A DNA stretch of 64,000 nt from NCBI RefSeq assembly GCF_023896955.1, contig NZ_JAMHIW010000016.1, positions 62,001 to 126,000 on the forward strand, in the 5' to 3' direction. This document shows, one piece after another, positions 28,126 through 44,259 of the stretch. The position numbers were made by a program, and so were the translations under genes. Under the pieces are notes generated by a model, which saw only the letters and a list, made by a program, of their open reading frames with translations, was not told where the DNA came from and made no database searches. Each line of letters opens with the position of its first letter. The first letter of the stretch is position 1. Source of the DNA: Micromonospora sp. RHAY321. Lineage in GTDB: Bacteria; Actinomycetota; Actinomycetes; Mycobacteriales; Micromonosporaceae.

Positions 28126-28215
28126 ATGATCTGGCGTTCACCACGCGGTGGCGTGCCATGGATGGGGCGGTGCCGTTCGCTCGGCCCGGACGGCGGTGAC
28201 CGGCCATGGTCCTGA
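28126..28215 (+). CDS. Possible 29-aa leader peptide upstream of the PAP2 gene
   Basis: An ATG at 28126 is preceded by a canonical AGGAGG (28116-28121) with a 4-nt gap. It opens a 29-codon reading frame (starting MIWRSPRGGVPWMG) whose TGA at 28213-28215 lies past the ATG of the PAP2 gene (28206), in another frame. The PAP2 start has only a weak site of its own, so its translation may be coupled to this short frame. It has no known homologue that I can name and may be chance. Confidence 0.35.
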   Translation: MIWRSPRGGVPWMGRCRSLGPDGGDRPWS

Positions 28216-29036
28216 TCTACGTGCTGGGCGCGCTGTCGATGCTGGCGCCCGTCGTTCTGGTTCCCCTGGCGGCCGTCCGTTGGGCGCCGGCCGTGCGGCA
28301 GAGTCGGATGGCGGAGCGACTGCGCGTCGCGGTGGCCGGGCTCACCGACGCATTCGGCCGGCTCGGGGCCGCCCTCGTCGTCGCGCTCGCCGGATGCGCG
28401 GCGGTGGTGGCGATCTGCTGGCCGCTGGGCGAGGCGCTGTCCAGGTTGGAGCCGACCGTCGACCACGCCGTCTTCGACTACGTGCACGCCCGGCGGGTCG
28501 AGGCGTGGGCCGACATCAACTCGTTCGTCACCGCGCTCGGCGACCGGTACCCGCTCAAGTGGGTCACCGTGGTCGCGGCGGTCGGCTTCGCCATCGCCTG
28601 GCGTCGTCGCCGCTGGTGGATCCCGCTGCTCGCGATGCCGATGCAGTTCGTCGTGGAGCAGTACACCCAGCAGATCCTGGCCCTCACCGTGGACCGGGGC
28701 CACCCACCCACCGACCTCGGCACCTATCCTTCCGGCGGCTGTGCGCGGGTCATGCTCACCTTCGGCACCATCGCGGTGCTGGCGGGCCTGACGTGGAAAA
28801 TCCCGCGGCGCGGCCGGGTCGCCCTGGTGACCGCGCTGGCGGTGCTGGCCTCGGTGGAGGGCTACACGCGCATCTACGCCGAGCGGCACTGGTTCACCGA
28901 CGTGATCGGCGGCTGGATCTTCGGTGCCCTGCTGCTCGGCGTGATGGTGCTGACGGTCCTCGTGGCCGAGGGCCGGGTCCGCACACCCGCCGGGCCCGCG
29001 ACGGCGGTGCCCGTGCGGGTCGCGACCACCACCTGA
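28206..29036 (+). CDS. PAP2-superfamily membrane phosphatase
   Basis: The 276-aa polytopic protein carries the three PAP2 active-site blocks in altered form: VDRGHPP (C1), TYPSGGCARV (C2, where PSGH is usual) and TRIYAERHWFTDVIGG (C3, with the nucleophilic His and Asp kept). PAP2 proteins dephosphorylate lipid phosphates such as undecaprenyl pyrophosphate or phosphatidate at the membrane, a role that would suit lipid-carrier recycling in polysaccharide export. The C2 change may be a subfamily feature. It is the first full gene of the block between aroE and aroC, and the next gene is a secreted glycosidase. Confidence 0.85.
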   Translation: MVLIYVLGALSMLAPVVLVPLAAVRWAPAVRQSRMAERLRVAVAGLTDAFGRLGAALVVALAGCAAVVAICWPLGEALSRLEPTVDHAVFDYVHARRVEAWADINSFVTALGDRYPLKWVTVVAAVGFAIAWRRRRWWIPLLAMPMQFVVEQYTQQILALTVDRGHPPTDLGTYPSGGCARVMLTFGTIAVLAGLTWKIPRRGRVALVTALAVLASVEGYTRIYAERHWFTDVIGGWIFGALLLGVMVLTVLVAEGRVRTPAGPATAVPVRVATTT

Positions 29037-29178
29037 CCGTTCGCCGCACAGCCGGCGACCTGCGGGCATCCTTAGGCTGCCATTAAGACCCGCTTAGCTA
29101 CCGGTTGTCAGCCACTCGTCGCCGTGTGTACGCCGATACGCTGCGCACAGTTTACGGTGGTCGACACAGGGAGCTGGT

Positions 29179-30879
29179 TTGAGCAGGTATGGAGCGCCCC
29201 GCCACGTCCGACGCGGCGGTGGCCGACGCAAGGCGCTGCTGCTCGGCGTGGCCGCCACGACGGTCGTGGGTGGACTGGTGGCCACCATGGTGCCGCTGCT
29301 TGCCGCCGACGACGTCTCGATCGCGGCGTCGGCGGACACCACGGCGACGACCGTCAGCCAGGACGGGGACAACGGCGCGAAGACCACCCTCGCCACCTGC
29401 CCGAACCGCTGCGACGCCCGCCCGAGTGGTGCACGGGAGGCGGTCCTGGAGTTCGCGACGCCCACGCTGCCCCCGAACGCGGTCAACGTCCGGGCGACCC
29501 TGCGGGTGCACGCCTGGCAGGCGTTCGACGCCACGGTGACGGTTCACGCGTCCACGCTGGACGCCCGGTTGGCACGGCCGGCGCCGGGGCCGGTAGGCCC
29601 CGCCGTCGACACGGTCACCGGTGTGCGGCCCGGCTTCAACGAGTGGGACGTGTCCAAGCTGGTCACGGGCGACGGCACGCTCACCGTCTCGATGGCGCAG
29701 ACCGGGTTGGAGACCCGGATCTACTGGGCCTCGACGGAGAACCGCAACCCGGACCTGCGTCCCCGGCTGGTCCTGGCGTACGACGTCGCGAGCCGCCCGA
29801 CCCCGACGTTGGCGCCGAGCAGCGCCGCGCCCTCGCCCAGCCGGACGGTGGCACCGACCACGCCGCCGCCGTCTGCCAGCGCGAGCCCGACCCGGCCGGC
29901 GCCCAGCCCGCCGCCCACCTCAGCGCCGCGTCCCCCCACAGGGTGCGGACAGGTGTCGCCGAAGCTGGTGCCCTCGTGCGGAGCCTGGTGGGGGATGTAC
30001 TCGCCGACGAACCCGTCGACCTGGGATCACGGCCGGGCCATCACCGACATCGAGGCGCAGGTCGGGCGGAGCTTCGACATCGTGCACCGCTACCACGACT
30101 TCTCCAACAGCGGCAGCAACGGGGCCTTCCCCGACTCGTACGAACAACAGCAGATGCGTGAGGGCCGGGTGATGTTCTTCGCCTGGGAGTCCCGGGTCTT
30201 CTCCTCGGGTGCCGTCCTCACCTGGAAGGACGTCTACGGCGGCCGGCACGACGGGACCATCGACGCTGTCGCGGCCCGGATCAGGGCGACCGGTGTGCCG
30301 GTGTTCATGGGCTTCGACCACGAGCCGGAGGACGATCCGGGCAAGGGCAGCGACGCCGACTTCGTCCGCGCCTGGCAGTACGTGCACGACCGGTTCACCG
30401 CCGCCGGCGCCCACAACGCCGTCTGGGTGTGGACGATGATGGGCTGGTCGGGCCACTACGGCCGGTACGCCGGCCTGTACCCGGGGGACCGCTTCGTGGA
30501 CTGGGTGGCCTGGGACCCGTACAACTTTCACGTCTGCAACGGCAGTACGACGTGGAAGAGCCCGTCGACCACCATCGGCAGCTTCTACCGCTGGCTCGAC
30601 CAGAGCGGTATCGGCGCGGGCAAGCCCCGGATGCTCGCCGAGTTCGGCACCAACTTCGACACGGCCGACCCGGACGCCAAGCGGCGCTGGTTCGAGGAGT
30701 TCCCGGCCGCGCTCAAGGCGCACCCGAAGATCAAGGCGGCGATCTACTTCAACTCCGCCGGCGTGACCACCCGGACGCGCACCTGCGACATGACGATGAA
30801 CCACGACGCGTCCGCCCTTGCGGGGTTCGCCCGGGCCGGCCGCGACGCCTATCTCAGCCAACCGATTCCGGGGGGCTGA
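29179..30879 (+). CDS. Secreted GH26-type glycoside hydrolase with DNRLRE/CBM96-like module
   Basis: The 566-aa protein has a basic N-terminus and signal or anchor segment (KALLLGVAATTVVGGLVATMV, about 18-38), a DNRLRE/CBM96-like beta-sandwich (about 55-205, ending in RPRLVLAYD), a Pro/Ser/Thr linker (206-255) and a GH26-like TIM barrel. The predicted acid/base Glu is in GFDHEPED (near 382) and the nucleophile Glu in MLAEFGT (near 488). GH26 members are endo-acting beta-mannanases and related enzymes; here, beside polymer export genes, trimming or release of the block's own polysaccharide is a reasonable guess. TTG 29179 is chosen because AGGGAG lies 5 nt upstream. Confidence 0.82.
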   Translation: MSRYGAPRHVRRGGGRRKALLLGVAATTVVGGLVATMVPLLAADDVSIAASADTTATTVSQDGDNGAKTTLATCPNRCDARPSGAREAVLEFATPTLPPNAVNVRATLRVHAWQAFDATVTVHASTLDARLARPAPGPVGPAVDTVTGVRPGFNEWDVSKLVTGDGTLTVSMAQTGLETRIYWASTENRNPDLRPRLVLAYDVASRPTPTLAPSSAAPSPSRTVAPTTPPPSASASPTRPAPSPPPTSAPRPPTGCGQVSPKLVPSCGAWWGMYSPTNPSTWDHGRAITDIEAQVGRSFDIVHRYHDFSNSGSNGAFPDSYEQQQMREGRVMFFAWESRVFSSGAVLTWKDVYGGRHDGTIDAVAARIRATGVPVFMGFDHEPEDDPGKGSDADFVRAWQYVHDRFTAAGAHNAVWVWTMMGWSGHYGRYAGLYPGDRFVDWVAWDPYNFHVCNGSTTWKSPSTTIGSFYRWLDQSGIGAGKPRMLAEFGTNFDTADPDAKRRWFEEFPAALKAHPKIKAAIYFNSAGVTTRTRTCDMTMNHDASALAGFARAGRDAYLSQPIPGG

Positions 30880-31007
30880 CACCGCGACGCTCGCGCGACG
30901 GCGAGGGGTGGTCGGAGGTCCGTCGGACATCCGACAGCCAGTGCTGATGTCGTCGCTCGGGGCCACTGACCGCCCAATCGGCGGATGTCGCCGGCCGGGA
31001 TCGGCGA

Positions 31008-31052
31008 GGCACGCTACGCGGGTTCTCGTCCATCTTGGAGGCGTAGCGTGCC
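31008..31052 (+). promoter_or_regulatory. Hairpin with ribosome binding site in loop and start codon in stem
   Basis: GGCACGCTACGC (31008-31019) pairs perfectly with GCGTAGCGTGCC (31041-31052). The 21-nt loop carries most of the Shine-Dalgarno sequence TTGGAGG (31035-31041), and the GTG start (31048-31050) lies inside the 3' arm. In RNA this would hide the start codon; in DNA it could be an operator instead. Confidence 0.55.
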
Positions 31053-33033
31053 CGAAGTTCCGCTCTCTCGGCGATCTGCCGGATTCCGCATCCGCGCGGC
31101 CCTGGTCGGCCTGGTGACCGCCGCCGCCGTGATGACCGTCCCGTCGGCGGCCTCGGCCACCGTGGTGCCCGCCCCCGAGACGGCGACCCTGGTGTCAACC
31201 AACCCCGCCGACAACACGCCGCACGGCCGCGACGGTGAGAGCCGCGCCTTCGCGCAGGTCGGTTCGCAGGTGTACGTGGGCGGCAGCTTCACCGAGATCC
31301 GGCAGAACGCCAGCGCCCCGTGGATCGGGCAGAGCTACCTGTTCGCGTACGACCGGACCAGCGGAACCATCTCGACCACCTTCCTGCCGGCCCTCGACGG
31401 CCCGGTCAACTCCCTGCTCGCCGGCCCGAACGGCACGCTCATCGTCGGCGGCGGGTTCAAGACCGTCAACGGTGTCTCGCGGAAGAACCTCGTGGCGCTG
31501 AACCCCACGACCGGGGCGACGGTCGACAGTTGGGTCGGCCGCTCCGACGGCGGCATGATCCGGGACATGGTGCTGCGCGGCAACTGGCTCTACGTCGCCG
31601 GCGCCTTCAACTGGCTCAACGGTGCCGCGCACTCCGGACTGGGCCGGCTCAACGCCAGCACCGGCGCGATCGACCCGACCTTCGCCATCAACGCCACCGT
31701 CGGGCGGCACGGCACCGGCTCGTACGGCTGGACGATCGACGTCACCCCGGACGGGCAGACCATGGTCGCCGGCGGCAACTTCACCCTGGTCAACGGACTG
31801 TCGCGCAACCAGATGGCGCTGATCGACCTCTCGGGTACGCCGACCGTGCTGGACTGGAGCACCGAGAAGTTCGTCCCGCCGTGTGCGGCGCCCACGACCT
31901 TCGTGCACTACGTGCAGGACGTGAAGTTCGGTGCGGACGGCACCTGGTTCGTCGTCGGCACCAACGGTGGCGCCGGCTGGCCGGCCGCCTACTGCGACGC
32001 GCTGATCCGGTTCGAGACCGCCAACCGGGGCAGCGGCCAGCTCGGCACCTGGGTCGACTACACCGGCAACGACACCATCACCTCCGTGGAGGTGGCCGAC
32101 AACGTCATCTACCTGGGCGGGCACTTCCGCTGGCTGAACAACCCGAACGCTTCCGACGCGGCCGGCGACGGCGCGATCGACCGGCTCGGCATCGCCGCCG
32201 TCACCCCCGCGACCGGCCTGCCGGTGGCCTGGAACCCCGGCCGCCGCGGCAGCGCGTCCATGCCGGCCGGCACCAGCAACTGGGGCTCCCAGGTGCCGGT
32301 GCTGTGGCGGGGCAGCGACGGGCTCTACTTCGGGCACAACTCCGACGGCATGGGCAGCGAGTACCACGGCCGGCTCGGCATGTTCCCGCTCGCCGGAGGC
32401 CGCACCGTCGTCCCGAAGAACCCGCCGACCGCGACCACCGGCAACCTCTACCTGGGCACCGGCGAGGGCCAGCTGGCCAAGGTGCCGTTCAGCGGCGCGG
32501 GCGTCGGCACGCCGGCCACGGTCAGCCAGCCCACCTACACCAACGCCGGGGCGACCTGGCGGGTGAGCGACCGCATCTACTGGGCGCACACGGTGGCCGG
32601 CACCCCCACCGGCAGCCGGATCGACGTCTCGATGTTCAACGGCGGCGCCATCGGCGTCCCGTGGGAGTCGTCGGGGTTCAACGACTGGTTCAACGCCGCT
32701 GGCATGACCGGCGCGTTCTACCTCGACGGCCGGCTCTACTACACCCGCAGCGGCGCCAACGCGCTCTACTACCGCTACTTCGAGATCGACGGCAACTACC
32801 TGGGCGCCACCGAGTTCCCCCTTCCCACGACCGGTGTCACCTGGTCGTCGGTGCGGGGCATGGCCTGGGTCGGCGGCCGGATCGTGTACGGCGCGACCGA
32901 CGGCACGCTGCGCAGCGTGGCGTTCGACCTGACGGCCGCCCCGGCCGTGGACGGCGCGACCAGCACGGTGATTGCGCCAGCGGGCGGGGGACTGACCTGG
33001 TCCACGCCGAGGATTTTCTTCTCCGTGCAGTGA
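31048..33033 (+). CDS. Secreted beta-propeller-like repeat protein
   Basis: The 661-aa protein has a signal peptide (FRIRAALVGLVTAAAVMTVPSAASA, cleavage near residue 36) and a series of roughly 50-residue repeats with the core VYVGGSFTEI, LIVGGGFKTVNG, LYVAGAFNWLNG, MVAGGNFTLVNG and IYLGGHFRWLNN, each followed by a LN-x-TTG type turn. This pattern matches delta-60/DUF5122-type beta-propeller repeats. It has no catalytic motif I recognise; binding to a polysaccharide or to the cell surface is possible. GTG 31048 has TTGGAGG upstream and lies in a 12-bp hairpin. It lies between the GH26-type gene and the Wzz-like gene on the same strand. Confidence 0.82.
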   Translation: MPEVPLSRRSAGFRIRAALVGLVTAAAVMTVPSAASATVVPAPETATLVSTNPADNTPHGRDGESRAFAQVGSQVYVGGSFTEIRQNASAPWIGQSYLFAYDRTSGTISTTFLPALDGPVNSLLAGPNGTLIVGGGFKTVNGVSRKNLVALNPTTGATVDSWVGRSDGGMIRDMVLRGNWLYVAGAFNWLNGAAHSGLGRLNASTGAIDPTFAINATVGRHGTGSYGWTIDVTPDGQTMVAGGNFTLVNGLSRNQMALIDLSGTPTVLDWSTEKFVPPCAAPTTFVHYVQDVKFGADGTWFVVGTNGGAGWPAAYCDALIRFETANRGSGQLGTWVDYTGNDTITSVEVADNVIYLGGHFRWLNNPNASDAAGDGAIDRLGIAAVTPATGLPVAWNPGRRGSASMPAGTSNWGSQVPVLWRGSDGLYFGHNSDGMGSEYHGRLGMFPLAGGRTVVPKNPPTATTGNLYLGTGEGQLAKVPFSGAGVGTPATVSQPTYTNAGATWRVSDRIYWAHTVAGTPTGSRIDVSMFNGGAIGVPWESSGFNDWFNAAGMTGAFYLDGRLYYTRSGANALYYRYFEIDGNYLGATEFPLPTTGVTWSSVRGMAWVGGRIVYGATDGTLRSVAFDLTAAPAVDGATSTVIAPAGGGLTWSTPRIFFSVQ

Positions 33034-33178
33034 CGACCGACCCGTTCGTCACAGAGAATCGATAGATCACATCGGGCCGGCGGCGGACCACGTCGCTGGC
33101 CGGATGCGTCGCAGGGGAATGTACGGCGCGCACGGGCGTCGTTCCGTCCGGGCACTCCATAACAGACGGTGAAGTTTC

Positions 33179-34792
33179 ATGGCTGATGCACCTTCCGGTT
33201 CCTGGTCCGCCGACCCGCTCGGCGGTGGGGGCACGCCGGCCCGGACGGTCACCCTGACCGACCTGCTCCGCGTCCCCCTGCACCGGATCCGGCTGGTGGC
33301 GGCGGTCGCCGCGGTCGGGCTGCTCGCCGCCCTCGGGTACGTCCTGCTCAGTCCGGGCGCGGTCACCGCGAGCGCGGTGGTGGCGGTGCGCCCGGTCGTC
33401 ACCGACGCGTTCACCCCGAGCGGCGCCGCCGCCGACCGCGCGGTGAACATGAACGTGGAGAGCGGTATCGCCACCGGAACCGAGGTGGTGCAACGGCTCG
33501 TGACCGCCGGTGGCGACGACCAGCGCGACGTGCGGGACGCACTCGAGGTGGAGGTGCCGACCGGCGGGCAGATCCTGCGCTTCTCGTACACCGGGCGCTC
33601 CGCCGAGGACGCGGTCCGCAACGTCAACCTCGCCGCGCAGACCTACCTCGACGTGCGGCGGACGATGTACGAGAAGCAGCGCTCCGAGATGCTGCGGCGC
33701 TACGACGAGAGCATCGCGGAGGTGGACAAGCAGCGGGAGGCGTTGCAGCGGCGCATCGCGGGCGCGCGGGACGGCTCGTTGGACGCGGCGGTCGCCGAAC
33801 TCGGCGGCACCAACAACCAGCTGACCCAGTTGAAGTCGTCGCGGACCGAGATCGCGGCGGTCGACGTCAACCCGGGCTGGATCACCCAGAGCGCGGAACA
33901 CGTCCTGGTCTCCTCCGACGGGCACACGCTGCTCTACGTGCTGGCCGGGCTGCTCGGGGGCGCACTGCTCGGCGTGGTGCTCGCGTACGCGTGGGAGTCC
34001 GCCGACCGCCGGGTCCGGTCGGTCCACGACGGACGGGACGTCACCGGCCTGCCGCTGCTCGGCACCGTGCGCGGCCGGCTGTTCCGCGGCCGGGGGAAAG
34101 CGGTGGACGCCGACATCCGGTACGTGGCGATGGCGATCGCCGAGCGGGTTCGCGAGCCGGCCCGGGTGGCTCTGCTGACCACCCGCGAGGACCAGACAGC
34201 CATCACCGCCGGTCTGGCCGTCGCGCTCGCCGCGACCGGCCGGGACGTGTACGTGGCCGACGACAGCGGCCGCCTCGAGCAGCTGCGCGCCGCCGTGCTG
34301 GCCGACCGGGACCGGCTGCCGGCGACGGCCAGTCCGGTCCGTTCGCTCGTCCCGAAGCCCCGGGCCGCCGATTTGGCCAGCGGCCACGACGTCACCGAGC
34401 AGATCCCCGTCCGCCGCCCGTTGCCGTACCCGGTCGGCCGGCGCCCGTCGGCGGACCCGGACGCCACCCTGACCCTGCCCCGGGCGGCCCCGGGTACGAC
34501 CGCGAGCGGCACGAGCACGGTCCGGAACAGCGCCGAGGAGATTCCCGTGGGTGCTGGGGGAGTGCGGTTCGGCACGTGGCGGCAGCGCGCCTCCACCGGG
34601 ATCGTGCTGTTCAACGCGCCGCCGGCCGAGGCCGACGAGCGCGGCGTCGCGGCGGCCCGCCAGGGCACCGCGGTGGTGGTCGTCGAACAGGACGGGACCC
34701 GGCAGGGCGACCTGCGCCGGCTCGCGGAGCGGCTGCGCGCGGCCGGCGTCGCCCCGTTGGGTTTCGTGCTCACCCGCAGCGGACGGGCCTGA
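33179..34792 (+). CDS. Wzz/YveK-like polysaccharide co-polymerase fused to a P-loop-less tyrosine-kinase-like domain
   Basis: The 537-aa protein has a first membrane helix (VAAVAAVGLLAALGYVLL, about 39-56), a periplasm-type coiled-coil domain, and a second helix (LLYVLAGLLGGALLGVVLAYAW, about 250-271). It then has the Pro-rich exit motif (GLPLLGTVRG) typical of chain-length regulators and a cytoplasmic domain laid out like bacterial tyrosine kinases. In that domain the Walker A position reads TTREDQTAITAGL and the Walker A' position reads VYVADDSGR, so the GxxGxGKS/T lysine is absent, and no Tyr cluster ends the protein. It likely sets polymer length without kinase activity (inference). It is separated by 3 nt from the Wzy-like gene. 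Confidence 0.8.
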   Translation: MADAPSGSWSADPLGGGGTPARTVTLTDLLRVPLHRIRLVAAVAAVGLLAALGYVLLSPGAVTASAVVAVRPVVTDAFTPSGAAADRAVNMNVESGIATGTEVVQRLVTAGGDDQRDVRDALEVEVPTGGQILRFSYTGRSAEDAVRNVNLAAQTYLDVRRTMYEKQRSEMLRRYDESIAEVDKQREALQRRIAGARDGSLDAAVAELGGTNNQLTQLKSSRTEIAAVDVNPGWITQSAEHVLVSSDGHTLLYVLAGLLGGALLGVVLAYAWESADRRVRSVHDGRDVTGLPLLGTVRGRLFRGRGKAVDADIRYVAMAIAERVREPARVALLTTREDQTAITAGLAVALAATGRDVYVADDSGRLEQLRAAVLADRDRLPATASPVRSLVPKPRAADLASGHDVTEQIPVRRPLPYPVGRRPSADPDATLTLPRAAPGTTASGTSTVRNSAEEIPVGAGGVRFGTWRQRASTGIVLFNAPPAEADERGVAAARQGTAVVVVEQDGTRQGDLRRLAERLRAAGVAPLGFVLTRSGRA

Positions 34793-34795
34793 CCG

Positions 34796-36148
34796 GTGCC
34801 CGTCACCGTCGCCCTGGCCAGCCTCGAGCCGGACGGGGGCGGCCCGCCGGCCAGCACCGTACCGCTGCCACCGCCGCCGCCCCGCCTGCCCGGCTGGCCG
34901 CTGCTGATCATGTTCGGTCTGGTCCCACTGTGGTGGCTGGCGGGCGCGTTCTACCTGGTCTGGCCACTGCTCGGCGCGGTGCTGCTGGCGATGCTGATCG
35001 TCCGGGGGCGGGTGCCGCTGCCACCGGCCACCGGCATCTGGCTGCTGTTCCTGACCCTGGTGCTGCTCAGCGCCACCCGACTGTCGTCGCCGGTCTCGCT
35101 GCTCCCCTTCGGCCTGCGGCTGGGCTACTACCTCACCGCGCTCGTGGTGGGCGTGTACGTCTATGTCTACGCCCGGGAACGAGCCGATCTGGCGGCGGCG
35201 CTCGTACCGGTCTGCCTGTTCTGGTTCGGTCTGGTCGCACTGGGTTGGCTCGGTGTGGTGGCGCCCCGGTTCGCGCTGACCACCCCGGTGGAGATGCTGC
35301 TGCCCGCCGGGGTCGCCGGCCACCCGTACATGCAGGACCTGGTGCACGTCACCGCCGCCGAGTACAGCGAGTTGTCGCTCAACCCGATCTACCGGCCGGC
35401 GGCGCCCTTTCCGTACACCAACAACTACGGCAGCGCGTACGCGATGACGCTGCCCTGCGTCGTGGCGTACACGATGCTGCGCCGCGGCGGGATCCTCCGC
35501 TGGGCACTGCTCGTGTCGCTGCCGCTGTCCCTGGCGCCGGCCTTCCTCACCCTGAACCGGGTGATGTTCGCGAGCCTCGGTGTGGGCCTGGCCGTGCTCG
35601 GCGCGCGGGCCGCGCTGCGCGGCAACGTCCGGGTGGGCGCGTCCGTCGTCGGGGTGCTGCTCCTCGGCGGGCTCACCACCTTTCTGATCCCGGTCGGAGA
35701 GCTCATCGGCAACCGGGTCGCGTCCAGCGACACGAACAGTGACCGGTTCTCCCTCTACGCGGAGGTCATCCGCCGTATCGGGGACTCACCCTGGCTCGGG
35801 TACGGCGCGCCGGTCAGCGTGGACACCGTCGCGGCGCAGGTGCCGGTCGGCACCCAGGGGCAGCTCTGGACGGTGCTGTTCAGTCACGGCGTACCGGCGT
35901 TGCTCTGCTTCCTGGCCTGGTTCGTCACCGTCACGGTGATCTGCGCCCGGGCCCGCTCGGCGCCCGGGCAGTGGCTGGCGGTGGTCCCGGTGGTGTGCCT
36001 GGTGCAGATCCCGTTCTACGGCATGGCCGACCCGACCATCACGGTCGCCTACTTCGCGGTCGCCGTCGCGATGGCGCTCACCGAGCGGGAGGCGGGACCC
36101 GGGCGGCGGGCACCGGCCACGCGCGGCCTGACGGCCGTTCCGGGATGA
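34796..36148 (+). CDS. O-antigen ligase / Wzy-like polysaccharide polymerase (membrane)
   Basis: The 450-aa protein has about 10-12 membrane segments and a large extracytoplasmic loop (VEMLLPAGVAGHPYMQDLVHVTAAEYSELSL, about 165-205). In the second half the stretch SDTNSDRFSLYAEVIRRIGDSPWLGYG is the usual O-antigen ligase/Wzy signature (R-x-xLY-x-x-x(5-6)-P-W-x-G-x-G). Such proteins polymerise lipid-linked repeat units outside the membrane. GTG 34796 starts 3 nt after the Wzz-like gene, and the stop overlaps the Wzx-like start by 4 nt, which fits a Wzx/Wzy-dependent assembly set. Confidence 0.82.
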   Translation: MPVTVALASLEPDGGGPPASTVPLPPPPPRLPGWPLLIMFGLVPLWWLAGAFYLVWPLLGAVLLAMLIVRGRVPLPPATGIWLLFLTLVLLSATRLSSPVSLLPFGLRLGYYLTALVVGVYVYVYARERADLAAALVPVCLFWFGLVALGWLGVVAPRFALTTPVEMLLPAGVAGHPYMQDLVHVTAAEYSELSLNPIYRPAAPFPYTNNYGSAYAMTLPCVVAYTMLRRGGILRWALLVSLPLSLAPAFLTLNRVMFASLGVGLAVLGARAALRGNVRVGASVVGVLLLGGLTTFLIPVGELIGNRVASSDTNSDRFSLYAEVIRRIGDSPWLGYGAPVSVDTVAAQVPVGTQGQLWTVLFSHGVPALLCFLAWFVTVTVICARARSAPGQWLAVVPVVCLVQIPFYGMADPTITVAYFAVAVAMALTEREAGPGRRAPATRGLTAVPG

Positions 36149-37743
36149 CGGCAGGCACCCGTGCGGCCGCCGACTCCGCCGGCGACGAGCAGCCGACCGA
36201 CGGTACGACCGAGGCCCGGCGTAGCGCCCGCACCGGCCTCGCGGGGCTGGCCGGTGCCGCCACCAACGGGCTTTTCGGCTTCCTGCTGGCGGTGGTCATC
36301 ACCCGCGGCTACGGCACCGTCGGCTCGGGGGCGTTCTTCGCCGCGATCGGTGTCGTCACCGTCACCGCCGCCGTGTGCACGCTCGGTGCGGAGACCGGCC
36401 TGATCTGGACGCTGCCCAGGCGGCGCGCCGGCGGGCGGGGCGACGCCGCCCGGGTGCTCCCGGTGGCGTTCCTGCCGCCGCTGGTGGCCGCCGTCCTCGT
36501 CGGCCTCACCGGGGTGTTCGCGGCGGACGCGCTCGCGCCCCGCCTGCTGGACGGGCCGGGCGCCGGCGGTACGACCCTGATCGCGGTCAGCTTCGCCGCG
36601 GTGCCGCTGGTGGTGGCGATGACGCTCCTGCTCGCCGTGCTGCGCTGCGTCCGCCCGATCCAGGCGTACGTCGGTGTGCAGTCCGTTTTGGTGCCGGTCG
36701 CCCGGCCGGTGCTGGTTGGTGTGGCCGCCGTCGCCAGCGGCGGCGTGCTGGTCGGCATGACCGGCTGGCTGGTCCCGGCGGCGTTCGCCGTGCTCGTCTG
36801 CCTGCTGCTGGTGGCCGGTCCGCTCGGCGTCGGCCGGGGCGCGGCACTGCGTCCCGAGCGGGCCGACTGGTCGACGTTCTGGCGTTTCGCGCTGCCCCGC
36901 GCCGCGTCCGCGGCGATCGACGCCAGCGCCGTGTGGGTCGGCGTGCTGCTCACCTCGGTGCTCGCCGGGCAGGCCGACGCGGGCGTGTTCGGCGCGGTCG
37001 GCCGCTACATCCTGGCCGGGCAGCTCGCCATGCAGGGGCTGCGGGTGGCGGTGTCGCCGCAGCTGTCCCGGCTGCTGGGTCGCGGCGAGCGGGCCGCCGC
37101 CGCGGCGGTGCACCGGCAGCTGACCACCTGGGCGCTGGTGCTGTCCTGGCCGGTGTACCTGCTGCTCGCCGTGTTCGGGCTGGCGTTCCTCCAGCTCTTC
37201 GGGCCGGAGTTCACCGCCGGCACCACCGCGATGACCGTGCTCGCCCTGGCCATGCTGATCAATACCGGCGTGGGCAACGTGCAGAGCCTGCTGCTGATGG
37301 GCGGGCGCAGCGGCCTGCATCTGGTCGCGGCGGTGGCCGGGTTGCTGGTCACCGTCTCCCTCGGGCTGTGGCTGATCCCGGAACACGGCGTGACGGGTGC
37401 CGCCGTCGCCTGGGCGGTCGGCATCGCCACCGAGAACCTCACCGCGTTCGGCTGCGCCCGGACGGTGGTCGGCCAGCCGTTGGTCGACGCGGCGCTGGTA
37501 CGCGCGGCGGCCGGGGTCGTCGCCGGGGTGGGGATCGCGGCACTGGTCGGCGTGTCCACGGGCGGTCGGGGGATCGCCGGTCTGGTGGTGGCGCTGAGCG
37601 TGCTGGCCGCCGCTTGCGTCGGTTTGTTGACGGTGCCCCGGGTGCGACGACGCATCCGGGTGACCATGAGGCAGCTCCGTGGCGGGCAGGGGGCGGCGTC
37701 GGCCGCCGACGGTGCCGCCGCGGCGTCGATGAAGGGCAGGTGA
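36145..37743 (+). CDS. Wzx-like polysaccharide flippase (MATE/MVF superfamily)
   Basis: The 532-aa protein has 12-14 membrane segments in the pattern of oligosaccharide flippases (for example GLAGLAGAATNGLFGFLLAVVITRGYGTVGSGAFFAA at the start and MTVLALAMLINTGVGNVQSLLLMGGRSGL in the second half). These proteins translocate lipid-linked sugar units across the membrane. ATG 36145 overlaps the upstream stop (ATGA), and its own stop overlaps the sulfotransferase start (GTGA). The segment order Wzz, Wzy, Wzx is contiguous and on one strand. Confidence 0.85.
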   Translation: MTAGTRAAADSAGDEQPTDGTTEARRSARTGLAGLAGAATNGLFGFLLAVVITRGYGTVGSGAFFAAIGVVTVTAAVCTLGAETGLIWTLPRRRAGGRGDAARVLPVAFLPPLVAAVLVGLTGVFAADALAPRLLDGPGAGGTTLIAVSFAAVPLVVAMTLLLAVLRCVRPIQAYVGVQSVLVPVARPVLVGVAAVASGGVLVGMTGWLVPAAFAVLVCLLLVAGPLGVGRGAALRPERADWSTFWRFALPRAASAAIDASAVWVGVLLTSVLAGQADAGVFGAVGRYILAGQLAMQGLRVAVSPQLSRLLGRGERAAAAAVHRQLTTWALVLSWPVYLLLAVFGLAFLQLFGPEFTAGTTAMTVLALAMLINTGVGNVQSLLLMGGRSGLHLVAAVAGLLVTVSLGLWLIPEHGVTGAAVAWAVGIATENLTAFGCARTVVGQPLVDAALVRAAAGVVAGVGIAALVGVSTGGRGIAGLVVALSVLAAACVGLLTVPRVRRRIRVTMRQLRGGQGAASAADGAAAASMKGR

Positions 37744-38654
37744 GGTCCGCCGTGTCGTCCCTCCGAGACCGGGTGAAGCAGCTCGTGCCGACCCAGGTGA
37801 CCAACCGGGTGAGAAGTTCCCTGGTCGACTACGCGGTACGCACCAGCGACCGGCGGCCGCTGCCGGACTTCCTCATCATCGGCACCAAACGGGGCGGCAC
37901 CACCTCCCTGTGGAACTACCTGATCCAGCACCCGCTGGTGCCGCGCCTCTTCCCGGCCTGGAACACGAAGTCCTCGCACTACTTCGAGGAGAACTGGCAC
38001 CGGGGCGAGGCCTGGTACCGGTCGCACTTTCCGACCGGGCGGCAGCGGGCGGCGCTGGAGAGCCGGCACCGCGGGCCGGTGCGGGTCGGTGAGGCGGCCC
38101 CGCTCTACATGTTCCACCCGCTGGCCGCGCAGCGCGTCGCCGCGCTGATGCCGTCGGTGCGGCTGATCGTGCTGCTGCGTGACCCGGTCGAGCGGGCGTA
38201 CTCGCACTGGAAGGAGCGGCGGACGCACGGCATCGAGCCGCTGGACTTCGCCGACGCGCTGGCCGCCGAGGAGGAGCGGACGGCGGGGGAGCGGGAGCGG
38301 CTGATCGCCGAGCCGGAGTACGTCAGCGAGCCCTACGACTGGTACACCTACCGGGCCCGGGGGCGCTACCTGGAGCACCTGGAGCCGTGGCTGGACCGGT
38401 TCGACCCGGCGCAGATCCTCTTCCTGCCCAGCGAGGACCTCTACCGCGACGCGCGCGCCACCTACCGCCGGACGCTGGACTTCCTCGGGCTGCCCCCGCA
38501 CGACCTGCCGAACTTCAAGGTCTACAACGACCGGCGGTCCGCCCCGCTGGACCCGGCGCTGCGCGCGGAGCTGACCGCGTACTACCGGCCGTACAACGAC
38601 GCGCTGCGGCGGCGGCTGGCGCTGGACCTCGACTGGCCGGAGCGGGCGGCGTGA
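37740..38654 (+). CDS. PAPS-dependent sulfotransferase
   Basis: The 304-aa cytoplasmic protein has both cofactor motifs of sulfotransferases: the 5'-phosphosulfate loop FLIIGTKRGGTTSLWNYL (near residue 45) and the 3'-phosphate motif VRLIVLLRDPVERAYSHW (near 140). Its general form matches carbohydrate sulfotransferases of the NDST-like group. It sits between the Wzx-like and kinase genes with 4-nt overlaps at both ends, so sulfation of the exported polymer or of its lipid-linked unit is likely (inference). The start is GTG 37740; a second GTG at 37752 is possible. Confidence 0.85.
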   Translation: MRSAVSSLRDRVKQLVPTQVTNRVRSSLVDYAVRTSDRRPLPDFLIIGTKRGGTTSLWNYLIQHPLVPRLFPAWNTKSSHYFEENWHRGEAWYRSHFPTGRQRAALESRHRGPVRVGEAAPLYMFHPLAAQRVAALMPSVRLIVLLRDPVERAYSHWKERRTHGIEPLDFADALAAEEERTAGERERLIAEPEYVSEPYDWYTYRARGRYLEHLEPWLDRFDPAQILFLPSEDLYRDARATYRRTLDFLGLPPHDLPNFKVYNDRRSAPLDPALRAELTAYYRPYNDALRRRLALDLDWPERAA

Positions 38655-39910
38655 CCACCCAGGTCACCGCGTGCACCGATCCGCGTTCCCGGAGCGACGG
38701 GCTGGGCTGGGTGACCCGGGCGGTCTTCGGCGACGAGCGCGTCGCGCTGACCGTCGGGGGCGACCCGCCGGCCGGTCACCGCCCGGTGGCCCGGTACGCG
38801 GTGGTCCCGTCGCTGGCCCGGGCACGGTTCCTGCTGCCGCTCGGCGCGCCCCGGGCCACGGCGGCGTCCCTGCTCGCGTACAACGCGCTGCGCCCACCGA
38901 GGGTGCGCGCGGTGCGGGCCGCGCTGGGCGGGCTGTCCCGTGTCGGCGCGCTACGGCGGGCCTTTCCCACCCTCACCGTCTCGGTGCCGGCCGGCGAGGA
39001 ACCCGCCGAGCTGCTGCTGGCCGAGCGGCTCGCCGTCGCCCTCGGCGGCGCGCCGTTGTACGCGGCGTGCGGGGTACGCCCACCGGACCCGAACCACAAG
39101 CCCACCCTTCAGCTCTTCGCCCCCGACGGCCGGCCCCGCGGGTACGCGAAGATCGGTTGGAACGGTGCCACCCGGGCGCTCGTCACCGTCGAGTGCGCCG
39201 CGCTGCGCGCGTTGGCCGAGGTGGGCGATGTTCCCGACCACCCGGCGACACCCAAGCTGCTGGCCGGGCTCGACTGGGCGGGACAGGTGGTGGCGGTGGT
39301 CGAGCCTCTGCCGTCGCGGGTACGCGGCGTGCCGGTCACCGACCGGCCTCGGATCGCCGCGCTGCTGGCGGTGGCCCGCAGGGGACGCGCTGCGGCCCCG
39401 CCCCGCCCGCTGGCCGGCTCACCGTTCCTCGGTCGGCTGGCCGCCGAGGCTGCCCGGGCGGCATCGGCGGACCCGTCCGGCGCGCGGGCGGTCGCGGCGG
39501 TGGCGGGACTGGAACGACGGCACGGGCACACCACGGTCGAGTTCGGACACTGGCACGGCGACTGGGTGCCGTGGAACCTCGGCCTGCACGGCGGACGACT
39601 GGTCGCCTGGGACTGGGAGCACAGTGGGCAGGCGGTCCCGCTCGGCTTCGACCTGGCGCACGACGCGTTCCAGCGGGCTCTGGTGCTGCAGGCGGAACCG
39701 GCCGGCACGGCCGCGGGCGCCGTCGACGCCCAGCTCGACCGGTACGGCGACCGGTTGGGGCTCGGGCCGGCTCAGCGCCGCCTGGTGGCCGACGGTTACC
39801 TGCTGGAGATGTGGCTGCGGACGTGGCGGCTGGCCGACGGCGGAGCGGGTTGGAACGCCGCCCTGCACCCCTCTCTGCTGGACATCGTCGAGAAACGACA
39901 GACGGCATGA
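38651..39910 (+). CDS. APH-fold phosphotransferase (kinase) of the polysaccharide block
   Basis: The 419-aa protein has an N-terminal region (about 1-130) with no clear known fold, then an aminoglycoside/choline-kinase-like domain. Catalytic-loop residues are intact: HGDWVPWN (HGDxxxxN, near 300) and WDWEHSG (the DxE/DFG-like metal ligand). The nucleotide Lys is probably in GYAKIGWN. APH-fold enzymes phosphorylate small alcohols, sugars or antibiotics; in this setting a sugar or glycolipid is more likely than an antibiotic. GTG 38651 overlaps the sulfotransferase stop by 4 nt. It ends the first tightly coupled run of the block. Confidence 0.8.
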   Translation: MTTQVTACTDPRSRSDGLGWVTRAVFGDERVALTVGGDPPAGHRPVARYAVVPSLARARFLLPLGAPRATAASLLAYNALRPPRVRAVRAALGGLSRVGALRRAFPTLTVSVPAGEEPAELLLAERLAVALGGAPLYAACGVRPPDPNHKPTLQLFAPDGRPRGYAKIGWNGATRALVTVECAALRALAEVGDVPDHPATPKLLAGLDWAGQVVAVVEPLPSRVRGVPVTDRPRIAALLAVARRGRAAAPPRPLAGSPFLGRLAAEAARAASADPSGARAVAAVAGLERRHGHTTVEFGHWHGDWVPWNLGLHGGRLVAWDWEHSGQAVPLGFDLAHDAFQRALVLQAEPAGTAAGAVDAQLDRYGDRLGLGPAQRRLVADGYLLEMWLRTWRLADGGAGWNAALHPSLLDIVEKRQTA

Positions 39911-39955
39911 TTCCGACAAACCGCCACGCCGGTTGACTGTTGACCACTGGCTGAG

Positions 39956-39984
39956 CGTGACGGAAGAATTGCTTGTCGTGACGG
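39956..39984. promoter_or_regulatory. Direct repeat in the leader of the glycosyltransferase genes
   Basis: The octamer CGTGACGG occurs at 39956-39963 and 39977-39984, 21 nt apart, about two helical turns, in the largest gap inside the polysaccharide block (39911-40135). The spacing suggests a regulator on one face of the DNA. No regulator is assigned. Confidence 0.3.
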
Positions 39985-40135
39985 TGGTCGATGGACCATC
40001 GGGCGACCGGCGCGCCGGAAAGCCCGGCCGGGAGATCGAACGCTCGTCCGGTCGCCCTATACAACGGCCGGTCGGCCTGTGGTCTGCTTCAGCCTGGCGC
40101 CGACCGAAATTCCAAGCGAACTTGTGGGGAGTCGC

Positions 40136-40615
40136 GTGGACACGAGCACTGAGGACGGAGGGCCCCCGGTCCTGCTGCTGGTTGGTTCCAGCGGCGGCCA
40201 CCTGGCCCAACTGCTGGCACTGCGGTCCTGGTACGAGAATCGGCCCCGATGCTGGGTCACCTTCGACACCCCGGAGGCGGTGTCGCTGCTCGCCGGGGAG
40301 GACCTGGTGCCGGCACACCACCCGACCACCCGGAACCTGCCGAACCTCCTGCGCAACGCGCTGCTCGCCTGGCGGGTGCTGCGTCGTCGGCGGGTCGCCG
40401 CGGTGGTCACCACCGGCGCCGGGGTCGCCGTCCCGTTCATCGTGCTGGCCCGGCTGCGCCGCGTCCCCACCGTCTACATCGAGGTGTACGACCGGATCGA
40501 CACCCCCACGTTGACCGCCCGGCTCTGCCGGCCGTTCCTCTCCGCCATGCTGGTGCAGTGGGACGAGCAACGCCGGCAGTACCCGGAGGCGACCGTCGTG
40601 GGAACACTGCTGTGA
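40136..40615 (+). CDS. Alg14/Cps14F-like glycosyltransferase accessory subunit
   Basis: The 159-aa product starts with VLLLVGSSGGHLAQLLALR, the sugar-nucleotide-transferase N-terminal signature of Alg14/EpsE/Cps14F proteins, and is followed by VVTTGAGVAVPFIVLARLRRVPTVYIEV, typical of this group. Alone it is only half an enzyme; it normally recruits the Alg13-like partner, here encoded immediately downstream with a 4-nt overlap. GTG 40136 has GGGGAG 4 nt upstream. Confidence 0.85.
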   Translation: MDTSTEDGGPPVLLLVGSSGGHLAQLLALRSWYENRPRCWVTFDTPEAVSLLAGEDLVPAHHPTTRNLPNLLRNALLAWRVLRRRRVAAVVTTGAGVAVPFIVLARLRRVPTVYIEVYDRIDTPTLTARLCRPFLSAMLVQWDEQRRQYPEATVVGTLL

Positions 40616-41319
40616 GCGGGGAGGCGACCACCGGCACCGCACCCACCGCCCGATCCGCCGCACCCCGGCCCGTGCCGCACCCGGCCCGGCCCGCCCCCCG
40701 CCCGGAACCGGCGCTGGTGCCCCGCCAGCGGGACCGCGCCGACGACGCGCGGCTCCAACTGCTGGTCGCCGTCGGCACCGACAAGCACCCCTTCGACCGG
40801 CTGGTGAACTGGCTGGACGAGTGGCACGTCGAGGCTGCCGACCACGTCGGGCTCACCATCCAGCACGGGCACACCCGGGCCCCGGCGGTGCCCGGCGCGG
40901 TGCCGTTCCTCGGCCACGACGCGTTGCAGGCCGCGATGGCCGACGTCGACCTGGTGGTCTGCCACGGCGGCCCGGCGACCATCCTGGAGGCCCGCCGGCA
41001 CGGTCACCTGCCCATCGTGGTCCCTCGCGACCCGGCGCACGGCGAGCACGTCGACGACCACCAACTGCTCTTCGCCCGCCGGCTCGGCGCGGCCGGCATG
41101 GTCGCGCTCTGCGAGACCCGTCAGGCCCTGCGCGACGCGCTGGCCGCCGGGCTGGCCGACCCGACCCGCTTCGCGGTCGCCGCCGACCCGCAGGCGCACG
41201 ACGCGCGGCACGCGGCGGTGGCCCGGGTCGGGCAGATCGTGGACGCGCTGGTCGCCTCCGCACCCGGGCGACGCCGGGCGTGGTGGTTCCCCTGGGCGCG
41301 GACCGGGCGGGACCGATGA
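40612..41319 (+). CDS. Alg13/Cps14G-like glycosyltransferase catalytic subunit
   Basis: The 235-aa product has a Pro/Arg-rich 45-residue extension followed by a GT28 C-terminal-type domain (LQLLVAVGTDKHPFDRLVNWLDEW, then VVCHGGPATILEARRHGHLPIVVPRDPAHGEHVDDHQ, the UDP-sugar binding HGG signature). Together with the preceding Alg14-like protein it should form a split glycosyltransferase that extends the lipid-linked repeat unit, in the manner of pneumococcal Cps14F/G. The donor sugar is not predictable. It overlaps the GT2 gene by 4 nt. Confidence 0.85.
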   Translation: MSGEATTGTAPTARSAAPRPVPHPARPAPRPEPALVPRQRDRADDARLQLLVAVGTDKHPFDRLVNWLDEWHVEAADHVGLTIQHGHTRAPAVPGAVPFLGHDALQAAMADVDLVVCHGGPATILEARRHGHLPIVVPRDPAHGEHVDDHQLLFARRLGAAGMVALCETRQALRDALAAGLADPTRFAVAADPQAHDARHAAVARVGQIVDALVASAPGRRRAWWFPWARTGRDR

Positions 41320-42236
41320 CGCCACGACCCACGGTCAGTGTCGTGGTGCCCACCCGGGACCGGCCGGAGCTGCTCCGGGCCGCCGTCCGGGCCATCCTCG
41401 ACCAGGACCATCCCGGCGCCGTCGAGGTCGTGGTGGTGCACGACCACTCCGACCCGGACGCGTCGCTGGCCGAGCTGTCCCGGCCGGACCGTGTCGTCCG
41501 GGTGATCCGCAACGGCCGCACTCCCGGGCTGGCCGGGGCGCGCAACTCGGGGACCCTGGTCGCCGAGGGTGAGCTGATCGCGTTCTGCGACGACGACGAC
41601 GAGTGGTTGCCGGGCAAGCTCTCCGCCCAGATCGCCGCGCTCGCCGCCGCGCCGGAGGCCGAGTTCGTCAGCTGCGGCATCCGGGTCAGCTACGACGGCC
41701 ACACCGTGGACCGGGTGCTCGACCTCGACCGGGTCGCCCTGGCCGACCTGCTCCGGGACCGGATGACCGAGCTGCACCCGTCCACCTTCCTGATCCGCGC
41801 CGCGGCCCTGCGCGACGGGTTCGGGCTGGTCGACGAGGAGATCCCGGGCAGCTACGCGGAGGACTACGAGTTCCTGCTCCGGGCCGCCCGCAGCGCCCCG
41901 CTGGTCAACCTGCGCACCCCCTACGTGCTGGTGCGCTGGCACCAGCGCTCGTACTTCGCGCAGCGCTGGGACACCATCTCCGAGGCGTTGCAGTGGCTGC
42001 TGGATCGCTACCCGGAGTTCGGCACCCAGCCGGCCGGCGAGGCGCGGGTCACCGGGCAGATCGCCTTCGCCCGGGCGGCGTCCGGTGACCGGCGGGGCGC
42101 GCTGCGCTGGGCGCGGCGCACCATCCGGCGCAACCCGCGGGAGCCACGCGCCTACCTCGCACTGGCGGTGGCCGGCCGGATGGTCCGGGCCGACGCCGTC
42201 CTGCGCACCCTGCACAAGCGGGGCCGGGGCATCTGA
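41316..42236 (+). CDS. GT2-family glycosyltransferase
   Basis: The 306-aa protein has a GT-A fold start (VSVVVPTRDRPELLRAAVRAILDQ), a metal-binding acidic motif (AFCDDDDEWLPGKL, near residue 95) and the second conserved acidic block (YAEDYEFLLRAARSA). It lacks membrane helices and probably adds a sugar to the lipid-linked unit in the cytoplasm. The last 70 residues form an Arg-rich helical tail typical of GT2 proteins from exopolysaccharide clusters. ATG 41316 overlaps the Alg13-like stop. Confidence 0.9.
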   Translation: MTPRPTVSVVVPTRDRPELLRAAVRAILDQDHPGAVEVVVVHDHSDPDASLAELSRPDRVVRVIRNGRTPGLAGARNSGTLVAEGELIAFCDDDDEWLPGKLSAQIAALAAAPEAEFVSCGIRVSYDGHTVDRVLDLDRVALADLLRDRMTELHPSTFLIRAAALRDGFGLVDEEIPGSYAEDYEFLLRAARSAPLVNLRTPYVLVRWHQRSYFAQRWDTISEALQWLLDRYPEFGTQPAGEARVTGQIAFARAASGDRRGALRWARRTIRRNPREPRAYLALAVAGRMVRADAVLRTLHKRGRGI

Positions 42237-42311
42237 AGCCCGCGCCCACCGACCTGCCGACCGGTTCGCCGCGCGAACCGCCCCCCGACACAGCAGACAA
42301 GGATGCCGCTC

Positions 42312-42968
42312 ATGGCACTTCACTCGCTCCGGTTCCGCCTGGTCGACTCACCGACCTCACTCGGTGCGAAGCGCCGGGCGCGGCGCGCCGCCTGGCTGTC
42401 GGACACGTTCCCGCACCTCGCCGAGATGAACGTCCTCGACCTCGGAGGGCGCGTGGAGAGCTGGGCCCGGGTGCCCGTCCGTCCGGCGCGCGTCCACGTG
42501 GTCAACCTGGAGCCGCTGCCGTCGGAGCTGCCCGACTGGGCCGAGGCGGACCACGCCGACGCCTGCGAGCTGCCCAAGAGCATCCTCAGCCGCCGCTACG
42601 ACCTCGTCTTCAGCAACAGCGTGCTCGAGCACGTGGGCGGGCACGAACGCCGCCGGCGCATGGCGGAGGCGATCCGCGAGCTGGCGCCCGCGTACTGGGT
42701 GCAGACGCCGTACCGGTACTTCCCGGTCGAGCCGCACTGGGTGGCGCCCGGCATGCAGTTCCTGCCGGTGCCGGCGCGCGTGGTCGTGGCGCGCAGGTGG
42801 CCGTTGGCCTACACCCCGGGCAAGTCGTACGAGGCGGCCATCCGGCAGGTCCTCACCACGGAACTGATCGGCCGGGCGGAGATGCGGCACCTCTTCCCGG
42901 ACGCCACCATCCGCAACGAGCGGCTGTTGGGCCTCACCAAGTCGCTGATCGCGCACCGGGGCTCGTGA
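42312..42968 (+). CDS. SAM-dependent class I methyltransferase
   Basis: The 218-aa product has a class I methyltransferase fold: motif I is [11 protein letters not shown], motif II falls near [10 protein letters not shown], and the post-I signature is [14 protein letters not shown]. The C-terminal half ([25 protein letters not shown]) is the type seen in glycan-cluster methyltransferases. ATG 42312 has AAGGA 8 nt upstream and is preferred over ATG 42303. It is the last gene before aroC, about 75 nt after the GT2 gene, and may methylate a sugar of the repeat unit (inference). Confidence 0.82.
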
Positions 42969-43046: not shown

Positions 43047-43061
43047 CGGGCCGGTGGCCCG
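43047..43061. terminator. Weak hairpin between the polysaccharide block and aroC
   Basis: CGGGCC and GGCCCG pair around a 3-nt loop, 20 nt before the aroC start. It is short and has no T-tract, so it is only a possible terminator. Confidence 0.3.
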
Positions 43062-43080
43062 CCGTGACAGACTGACCGCT

Positions 43081-44259
43081 GTGTTGCGCTGGTTGACTGC
43101 AGGTGAATCGCACGGCCCCGCCCTCGTCGCGCTGCTGGAGGGCGTGCCGGCCGGTATCGAGGTGACCACCACCGAGATCGCCGACGAGCTGGCCCGCCGG
43201 CGGCTGGGCTACGGCCGCGGCGCCCGGATGTCGTTCGAGCGGGACGAGGTCGAGGTGCTCGGCGGCCTGCGGCACGGCGTCAGCCTGGGCAGCCCGGTGG
43301 CGATCCGGGTGGGCAACTCCGAGTGGCCGAAGTGGCAGACGGTGATGGCCGCCGACCCGGTGGACCCCGACGAGCTCGCCCGGCAGGCCCGCAACGCGCC
43401 GCTGACCCGTCCCCGGCCCGGCCACGCCGACCTGGCCGGCATGCAGAAGTACGGCCACACCGACGCCCGGCCGATCCTGGAGCGCGCCAGCGCCCGGGAG
43501 ACCGCCGCCCGGGTCGCCGTCGGCACGGTCGCCAAGGCGCTGATCCGCCAGGCGCTCGGCATCGAGATCGTCTCGCACGTCGTCGAGCTGGGCCCGGTGG
43601 CCGCGAAGCCCGGGCTGCGCCCCACCCCGTCCGACGCCGCCCGGATCGACGCCGACCCGCTGCGCTGCCTCGACCCGGAGGCCAGTGCCCTGATGGTCGC
43701 CGAGGTGGACGCCGCGAAGAAGGCCGCCGACACCCTCGGCGGCGTGGTCGAGGTGCTGGCGTACGGGGTGCCGCCGGGCCTGGGCAGCCACGTGCAGTGG
43801 GACCGCAAGCTCGACGCCCGGCTCGCCACCGCGCTGATGTCGATCCAGGCGATCAAGGGCGTGGAGATCGGCGACGGCTGGCAGCAGGCCCGCTCCCGTG
43901 GCTCCGAGGCGCACGACGAGATCATCCCGTCGGCCACCGGTGTCCGCCGGGTCACCGACCGGGCCGGCGGCCTGGAGGGTGGCATCACCACCGGCGAGCC
44001 GCTGCGGGTCCGTGCCGCGATGAAGCCGATCTCGTCGCTGAACCGGGCCCTGGCCACCGTGGACATCACCACCGGTGAGCCGGCCACCGCGATCAACCAG
44101 CGCTCGGACGTCTGCGCCGTGCCGGCCGCCGCGGTGGTCGCCGAGGCGATGGTCGCGCTGGTGCTGGCCGAGGCGGCCACCGAGAAGTTCGGCGGGGACT
44201 CGGTCGGCGAGATTCGCCGCAACCTGACCGGCTACCTCGACGCGCTGGTCATCCGCTGA
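43081..44259 (+). CDS. aroC: Chorismate synthase
   Basis: The FMN-dependent enzyme converts EPSP to chorismate. The 392-aa product starts at GTG 43081 with [20 protein letters not shown], the family signature, and includes [61 protein letters not shown] and [10 protein letters not shown]. No Shine-Dalgarno site is visible; a possible -10 (CAGACT at 43069-43074) lies close to the start and could give a leaderless mRNA. It overlaps aroK by 1 nt. Confidence 0.96.

Follow-up and report, generated by a model that had tools for sequence, protein, structure and literature searches.

An aroE-aroC polysaccharide block of Micromonospora as a probable variant of a widespread, wps-1-like sulfated-glycan system of actinobacteria

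What is made by the twelve same-strand genes that separate aroE from aroC (28206-42968, + strand) in the 64-kb Micromonospora window, the whole stretch of DNA analysed here, and is the block particular to this genome? A sequence-only reading had described a complete-looking polysaccharide assembly block, inserted between the two shikimate genes, in a combination that it could not name. All twelve genes are present, and their families are upheld by Pfam and NCBIfam for all but Wzx and the kinase, several with scores below the cut-offs (Table 1); the combination can be named as a relative of wps-1 of Actinoplanes missouriensis, with a sulfotransferase and a kinase as its signature. We consider it quite probable that the block is the Micromonospora version of a widespread actinobacterial Wzx/Wzy system making a sulfated, possibly phosphorylated, polysaccharide, with Wzz, Wzy, Wzx, a heparan-type sulfotransferase, an APH-fold kinase and a GT2 glycosyltransferase as its predicted core.

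Table 1. Genes of the block and its flanks, with window coordinates and the evidence for each assignment.
Feature	Coordinates	Strand	Evidence
aroE, left flank	27082..27903	+	tblastn synteny with relatives
PAP2-family phosphatase, probable Und-PP recycling	28206..29036	+	Pfam PAP2 3.7e-10; weak SepP similarity
Secreted glycosidase: CBM96-like, Ser/Pro/Thr-rich linker, GH26 domain (start codon uncertain)	29179..30879	+	Pfam CBM96 9.7e-6, GH26 0.011
Secreted DUF5122 beta-propeller	30985..33033	+	Pfam DUF5122 2.6e-12; N-terminal hydrophobic segment
Wzz-like chain-length protein, C-terminal kinase-like part without Walker A	33179..34792	+	Pfam Wzz 0.0015; NCBIfam EpsF/EpsG partial
Wzy-like polymerase (O-antigen ligase family)	34796..36148	+	Pfam Wzy_C 3.5e-7; ~12 TM stretches; WpsJ homologue 1.6e-31
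Wzx-like flippase	36145..37743	+	~14 TM stretches; relatives match MatE/Polysacc_synt; WpsG homologue 2.1e-25
Carbohydrate-type sulfotransferase, PAPS-binding motif GTKRGGTTSL	37740..38654	+	Pfam Sulfotransfer_1 1.2e-17; PDB heparan sulfate 3-OST 8.5e-18; WpsH homologue 1.2e-56
APH-fold kinase (predicted)	38651..39910	+	alignment, AlphaFold and Foldseek; WpsI homologue 1.0e-32
Alg14/PssD-like glycosyltransferase subunit	40136..40615	+	Pfam Alg14 5.9e-10; NCBIfam PssD 5.1e-27, below cut-off
Alg13/PssE-like glycosyltransferase subunit	40612..41319	+	Pfam Glyco_tran_28_C 4e-14; NCBIfam PssE 1e-18, below cut-off
GT2 glycosyltransferase, WpsA homologue (50%)	41316..42236	+	Pfam Glycos_transf_2 4.7e-23; WpsA 1.1e-97
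SAM methyltransferase, optional gene	42303..42968	+	Pfam Methyltransf_23 2.8e-6; only some relatives carry one
aroC, right flank	43054..44259	+	TIGR00033 match

According to the gene models, gaps of 302, 142, 105 and 145 nt separate the genes from aroE through PAP2, GH26 and propeller to Wzz. A tight run then begins with a 3-nt gap at Wzz-Wzy and continues with 4-nt overlaps at Wzy-Wzx, Wzx-sulfotransferase and sulfotransferase-kinase; after 225 nt, a second run holds 4-nt overlaps at Alg14-Alg13 and Alg13-GT2, with gaps of 66 nt to the methyltransferase gene and 85 nt from there to aroC. The two runs seen by the sequence-only reading are present, with six junctions of 4 nt or less instead of seven. 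The GC content is 0.70-0.75 across the block and both flanks, showing no composition break. No tRNA was found in the 64-kb window, and a promoter and terminator scan gave counts close to chance. Elsewhere in the window, downstream of a gene reading like a RarA/MgsA-type ATPase, a 954-aa ORF (18865-21729) rich in Pro, Ala, Gly and Arg lies within a stretch of up to 84% GC; it has a single hydrophobic stretch at its C-terminus, as well as a 66-bp tandem repeat.

Among the assembly proteins, the Wzx-like protein has no Pfam match of its own; seven of its 15 aligned homologues match MatE and one matches Polysacc_synt, and its approximately 14 hydrophobic or transmembrane stretches likewise support a flippase of the MATE/PST fold, a predicted assignment that is weak by curated models. 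The Wzy_C match (30.6 bits against a cut-off of 31.7) would fit a Wzy-like polymerase, in a family where sequence alone does not separate polymerase from O-antigen ligase. The Wzz-like protein, a putative Wzz that is again weakly assigned by curated models, also scores below its cut-off and possesses two separated transmembrane regions, as expected of a Wzz/PCP protein. No Walker A motif is visible in its kinase-like C-terminal part, and the same holds in nearly all relatives.

The sulfotransferase resembles the bacterial sulfotransferase 3rnl and heparan sulfate 3-O-sulfotransferases in a PDB search, and both its 5'-phosphosulfate loop (GTKRGGTTSL) and its 3'-phosphate motif (RDPVERAYS) are conserved in the alignment, suggesting a PAPS-dependent enzyme. 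For the kinase, which has no Pfam match, the AlphaFold model (pLDDT 92.7) led Foldseek to structures of APH(3'), APH(4) and fructosamine-3-kinase at TM-scores of about 0.4 for the query and 0.6 for the target; residues K167, E181, D304, N309 and D321 are invariant in 18 aligned sequences. The model and the invariant catalytic residues combined indicate an APH-fold kinase. PDB profile searches with the kinase and Wzx alignments returned nothing useful. The CBM96 and GH26 matches of the secreted glycosidase both fall just under the Pfam cut-offs; its GH26 domain matches endoglucanase H of Clostridium thermocellum in the PDB (1.4e-12), and both GH26 catalytic glutamates align with the HEANGD and IIAEF motifs of that enzyme, as would be expected of an active glycosidase.

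Taken together, the assignments support a near-complete Wzx/Wzy-type block, excepting the initiating transferase, whose absence from the window had been correctly read. A search of the genome located four PHPT genes (contigs C41, C5, C4 and C15) and one PNPT gene (C3), all on contigs other than that of the window, and the initiating step would probably be served by one of these candidates. In many other genera a PHPT gene adjoins the cluster, making a PHPT a plausible partner; of those in this genome, the C5 and C41 genes most resemble the cluster-adjacent PHPTs. No single gene could be singled out: the C5 gene (PHPT2) has slightly higher pairwise identity to the cluster-adjacent PHPTs, but in the PHPT tree these form their own branch, joined specifically with neither the C5 nor the C41 candidate. 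PHPT2-like genes were found in every genome searched and give no presence/absence signal. For PAPS, the genome has an APS kinase (C7); such genes occur in 50 of 50 genomes searched and are uninformative as a predictor of the block. APS-kinase genes do adjoin wps-1-like clusters in several genera (G111:C9:297372, G183:C66:59881, L275, L276, L279 and L284), a position that fits a dedicated PAPS supply.

The kinase profile was used to follow the system beyond the family. Matches at E <=1e-20 were found in 51 of 297 genomes of the class and strong matches in about 12 of 397 genomes of the phylum. Gene association was then counted in 28 kinase-led loci outside the family against 17 control loci, the latter including one (L236) with a weak kinase match and no cluster. 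A sulfotransferase is present in 27 of the 28 kinase-led loci (L276 being the exception) and in none of the 17 controls. The kinase-led loci also encode Wzx (26), Wzy (27), Wzz (23), GT2 (21), propeller (20), Alg14/13 (17-18), GH26 (17) and WpsB-like (17) proteins, all essentially absent from the controls. With this conserved gene association, clusters of similar composition are present in many actinobacterial families. The exact gene order of the window is not special, because both order and decoration genes differ between relatives.

Within Micromonospora, a survey of 40 loci of 20 kb from genomes of the family revealed alternative alleles at one site, with three states between aroE and aroC: type I, type II and empty. 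Type I, carried by Micromonospora saelicesensis, M. lupini, M. avicenniae and Salinispora species among others, is the arrangement of the window; PAP2, methyltransferase and a hexapeptide acyltransferase are optional, and the order of PAP2 and GH26 varies. Type II, whose carriers include M. matsumotoense, M. wenchangensis and M. halophytica, comprises the same families reordered (GH16 or GH26, kinase, PAP2, fused Alg14-13, propeller, Wzz, GT2, Wzy, Wzx, sulfotransferase, optional methyltransferase, aroC) and approximately 40-75% identical; PAP2 is usual in type II and sporadic in type I. At empty sites aroE and aroC lie 5-165 bp apart in six of seven cases and 559 bp in one, and the gap is 27-80 bp in three other genera, in agreement with the earlier statement that the two genes are usually close neighbors. 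In those empty-site genomes that were examined, a distant type III cluster lies at another place, beside a PHPT/GT4 locus, with Wzy, kinase, sulfotransferase, Wzx, a second sulfotransferase, GH26 and a propeller with malectin domains. In other genera of the family, among them Couchioplanes, Pseudosporangium, Paractinoplanes and Actinocatenispora, no cluster was observed next to aroC, and a PHPT gene is often a neighbor of the cluster.

The distribution was then counted across 141 genomes of the genus, where the numbers are approximate, with small errors possible, since only 12 candidates per genome were scored. A type I/II kinase is present in 107 genomes (about ten of them as fragments) and a type III kinase in 30, with neither or only a trace in four. 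No genome carries both, whereas about 23 would be expected under independence; this exclusion may reflect one or few events, because type III forms one clade on the marker tree. In 94 of the 107 carriers aroC follows on the same strand within 20 kb, and three more were found at 30 kb, giving about 97 of the 141 genomes. The description "inserted" holds relative to outgroups with adjacent aroE and aroC, but within the genus the block is an ordinary neighbor of aroC in most relatives, which is largely the outcome that the sequence-only reading had itself named as refuting it.

The independent marker tree was built from oriented DNA of a single locus, the conserved C5-type PHPT locus, in 41 genomes. 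It groups 20 of 21 type I genomes together and puts the remaining one (G131) next to a type II genome; the type III/empty genomes, eight in number, all fall in one clade inside the type II lineage. Three to four changes of type are required, compared with about 18 in shuffles. In the block tree (propeller, Wzx and sulfotransferase), G131 groups with type I. From these placements, inheritance accounts for most of the distribution of types, alongside one loss and at least one same-site replacement.

Several further variants were observed at the site. In G196 and G630 (L036, L079, L258, L259), and by spacing only in G680, about 26 kb of additional DNA separates the methyltransferase gene from aroC; this insert holds a Wzy_C gene, two DegT aminotransferases, a PglD-like hexapeptide transferase and a GDP-mannose-dehydratase-like gene, and part of this cargo seems to precede aroC without the block in G692 (L262). 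Most type I relatives have a hexapeptide acyltransferase gene between propeller and Wzz (about 5570-6214 in L037, 5598-6146 in L042, 13782-14312 in L045) that is missing from the window. In G664 (C2:4537157), only a kinase fragment with an internal stop is left 1 kb before aroC, resembling a decaying block.

These data bear on three other accounts of the block. It is improbable that the product is an ordinary unsulfated exopolysaccharide or capsule, with the sulfotransferase and kinase acting on a lipid, protein or small molecule and present by history. Sulfotransfer_1 enzymes do accept many substrates and APH-fold kinases are diverse, but the pair is associated with Wzx/Wzy in 26-27 of the 28 independently found loci, across many families, and knockouts of wpsH and wpsI resemble those of wpsG and wpsJ (PMC13390465). 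A cell-wall-linked glycopolymer of the teichuronic or secondary-wall type could instead be made or decorated, the Wzy_C protein being a ligase; the family spans both activities, PAP2 and GH26 suit either product, and some relatives encode WecG/TagA enzymes. Against this account, which we regard as similarly unlikely, a Wzz-like protein accompanies Wzy_C in 23 of the 28 loci and no LCP-type attachment enzyme is among the family matches of the block.

The uniform GC content, the lack of a tRNA, the position beside aroC in about 97 of 141 congeners and types that largely follow the marker tree all argue against recent acquisition of the block as a foreign island lacking any fixed role in the genus, despite the existence of empty sites, the adjacency of aroE and aroC in outgroups and at least one same-site change of type (G131). 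On distribution, composition and trees, this account was rejected as very improbable.

For the sulfated-polysaccharide system, we infer the pathway order, the substrates and the sulfation and phosphorylation of the product as follows. A PHPT encoded elsewhere (candidates C5:158867-160279 and C41:76713-77963) would load the first sugar phosphate on undecaprenyl phosphate, and the split PssDE/Alg13-14 pair and the GT2 enzyme would extend the lipid-linked sugar. Decoration of the lipid-linked repeat would take place in the cytoplasm, through the sulfotransferase (with PAPS), the kinase and the methyltransferase, although the sulfotransferase or kinase could act on something other than the polymer. 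Wzx would flip the repeat, Wzy polymerize it and Wzz set the length, with PAP2 recycling the lipid; outside, the GH26 enzyme may trim or release the polymer and the propeller may bind it. By analogy with wps-1, the polymer might serve in a spore or hyphal matrix. A broader proposal, which we put forward only tentatively and consider rather doubtful, is that a single system, dedicated to a sulfated and phosphorylated polysaccharide, is common to many actinobacterial families, with the APH-fold kinase acting next to the heparan-type sulfotransferase to phosphorylate a sugar of the lipid-linked repeat, and that nearly every Micromonospora species keeps one version, so that types I, II and III replace one another. 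We know of no such phosphorylation step in other Wzx/Wzy pathways.

Overall, we place the block as a probable version of the predicted sulfated-glycan system to which wps-1 is related; what seems new here is the wide spread, the signature kinase-sulfotransferase pair and the polymorphic aroE-aroC site. This predicted machinery extends beyond a single sporangium-forming species: nearly all of the Micromonospora genomes sampled carry it, Salinispora included, as do about one in six of those sampled from the class, so that many culturable strains are available for testing sulfated glycans. The kinase stands out as a core enzyme yet to be studied, and the fixed site, where the block is naturally present, absent or replaced, can be used to compare surface properties or phage sensitivity.

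The nearest studied system, found here by gene order, is wps-1 of Actinoplanes missouriensis. In genome G144, taken here as that of A. missouriensis 431, a locus at 0.78 Mb shows the published gene order and families of wps-1 (WpsA-K), including DUF4262, with an adjoining ATP-sulfurylase/APS kinase. The proteins of the window are 50, 27, 38, 41, 35, 28 and 25% identical to WpsA, E, G, H, I, J and K, respectively: Wzx, Wzy, Wzz, GT2 and GH26 match WpsG, J, K, A and E with E-values of 2e-25, 2e-31, 2e-6, 1e-97 and 7e-21, the sulfotransferase matches WpsH over 259 aa (1.2e-56) and the kinase matches WpsI over 269 aa (1.0e-32). A methyltransferase gene is also common to both loci. Identity is nevertheless only 25-50% and the gene order is different; the WecG enzyme (WpsC), the second sulfotransferase (WpsB), DUF4262 and the adjoining ATP-sulfurylase/APS kinase are particular to wps-1, whereas the PssDE-like enzymes, PAP2 and propeller are particular to the window. 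No homologue of WpsB or WpsC was found among the block genes, and the block is therefore called related to wps-1 rather than a member of it. Squashed sporangia resulted when wpsA, C, G, H, I, J or K was knocked out, and the wpsE knockout had a milder phenotype (PMC13390465). For wps-1, as here, a Wzx/Wzy route to a sulfated polysaccharide is proposed; its authors state that the product awaits verification, bacterial sulfated polysaccharides being known from cyanobacteria and production in an actinomycete awaiting proof (PMC13390465, 2026).

The imp cluster of the same species (PMC12691653) is likewise of the Wzx/Wzy type and makes a sporangium matrix polysaccharide; it has another gene set, with three GT4 and one GT2 enzymes and no sulfotransferase or kinase reported. 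The Synechan cluster of Synechocystis represents a characterized bacterial sulfated exopolysaccharide pathway; it is cyanobacterial, and the likeness is one of published description (PMC8205485). For the Alg14-like and Alg13-like halves, PssD/PssE (Cps14F/Cps14G) and WelK are the likeness, with the closest NCBIfam models; the window pair scores under their curated cut-offs, so that the match implies no sugar specificity, and type II relatives encode the two halves as one fused protein. No polysaccharide locus at aroE/aroC of Micromonospora was found in the literature searched. Capsule and O-antigen loci occupy fixed chromosomal sites, and the Micromonospora site shares with them a single location, alternative cassettes and flanking housekeeping genes; it differs in lying between aroE and aroC, in having one empty state and in holding types that are mostly vertically inherited.
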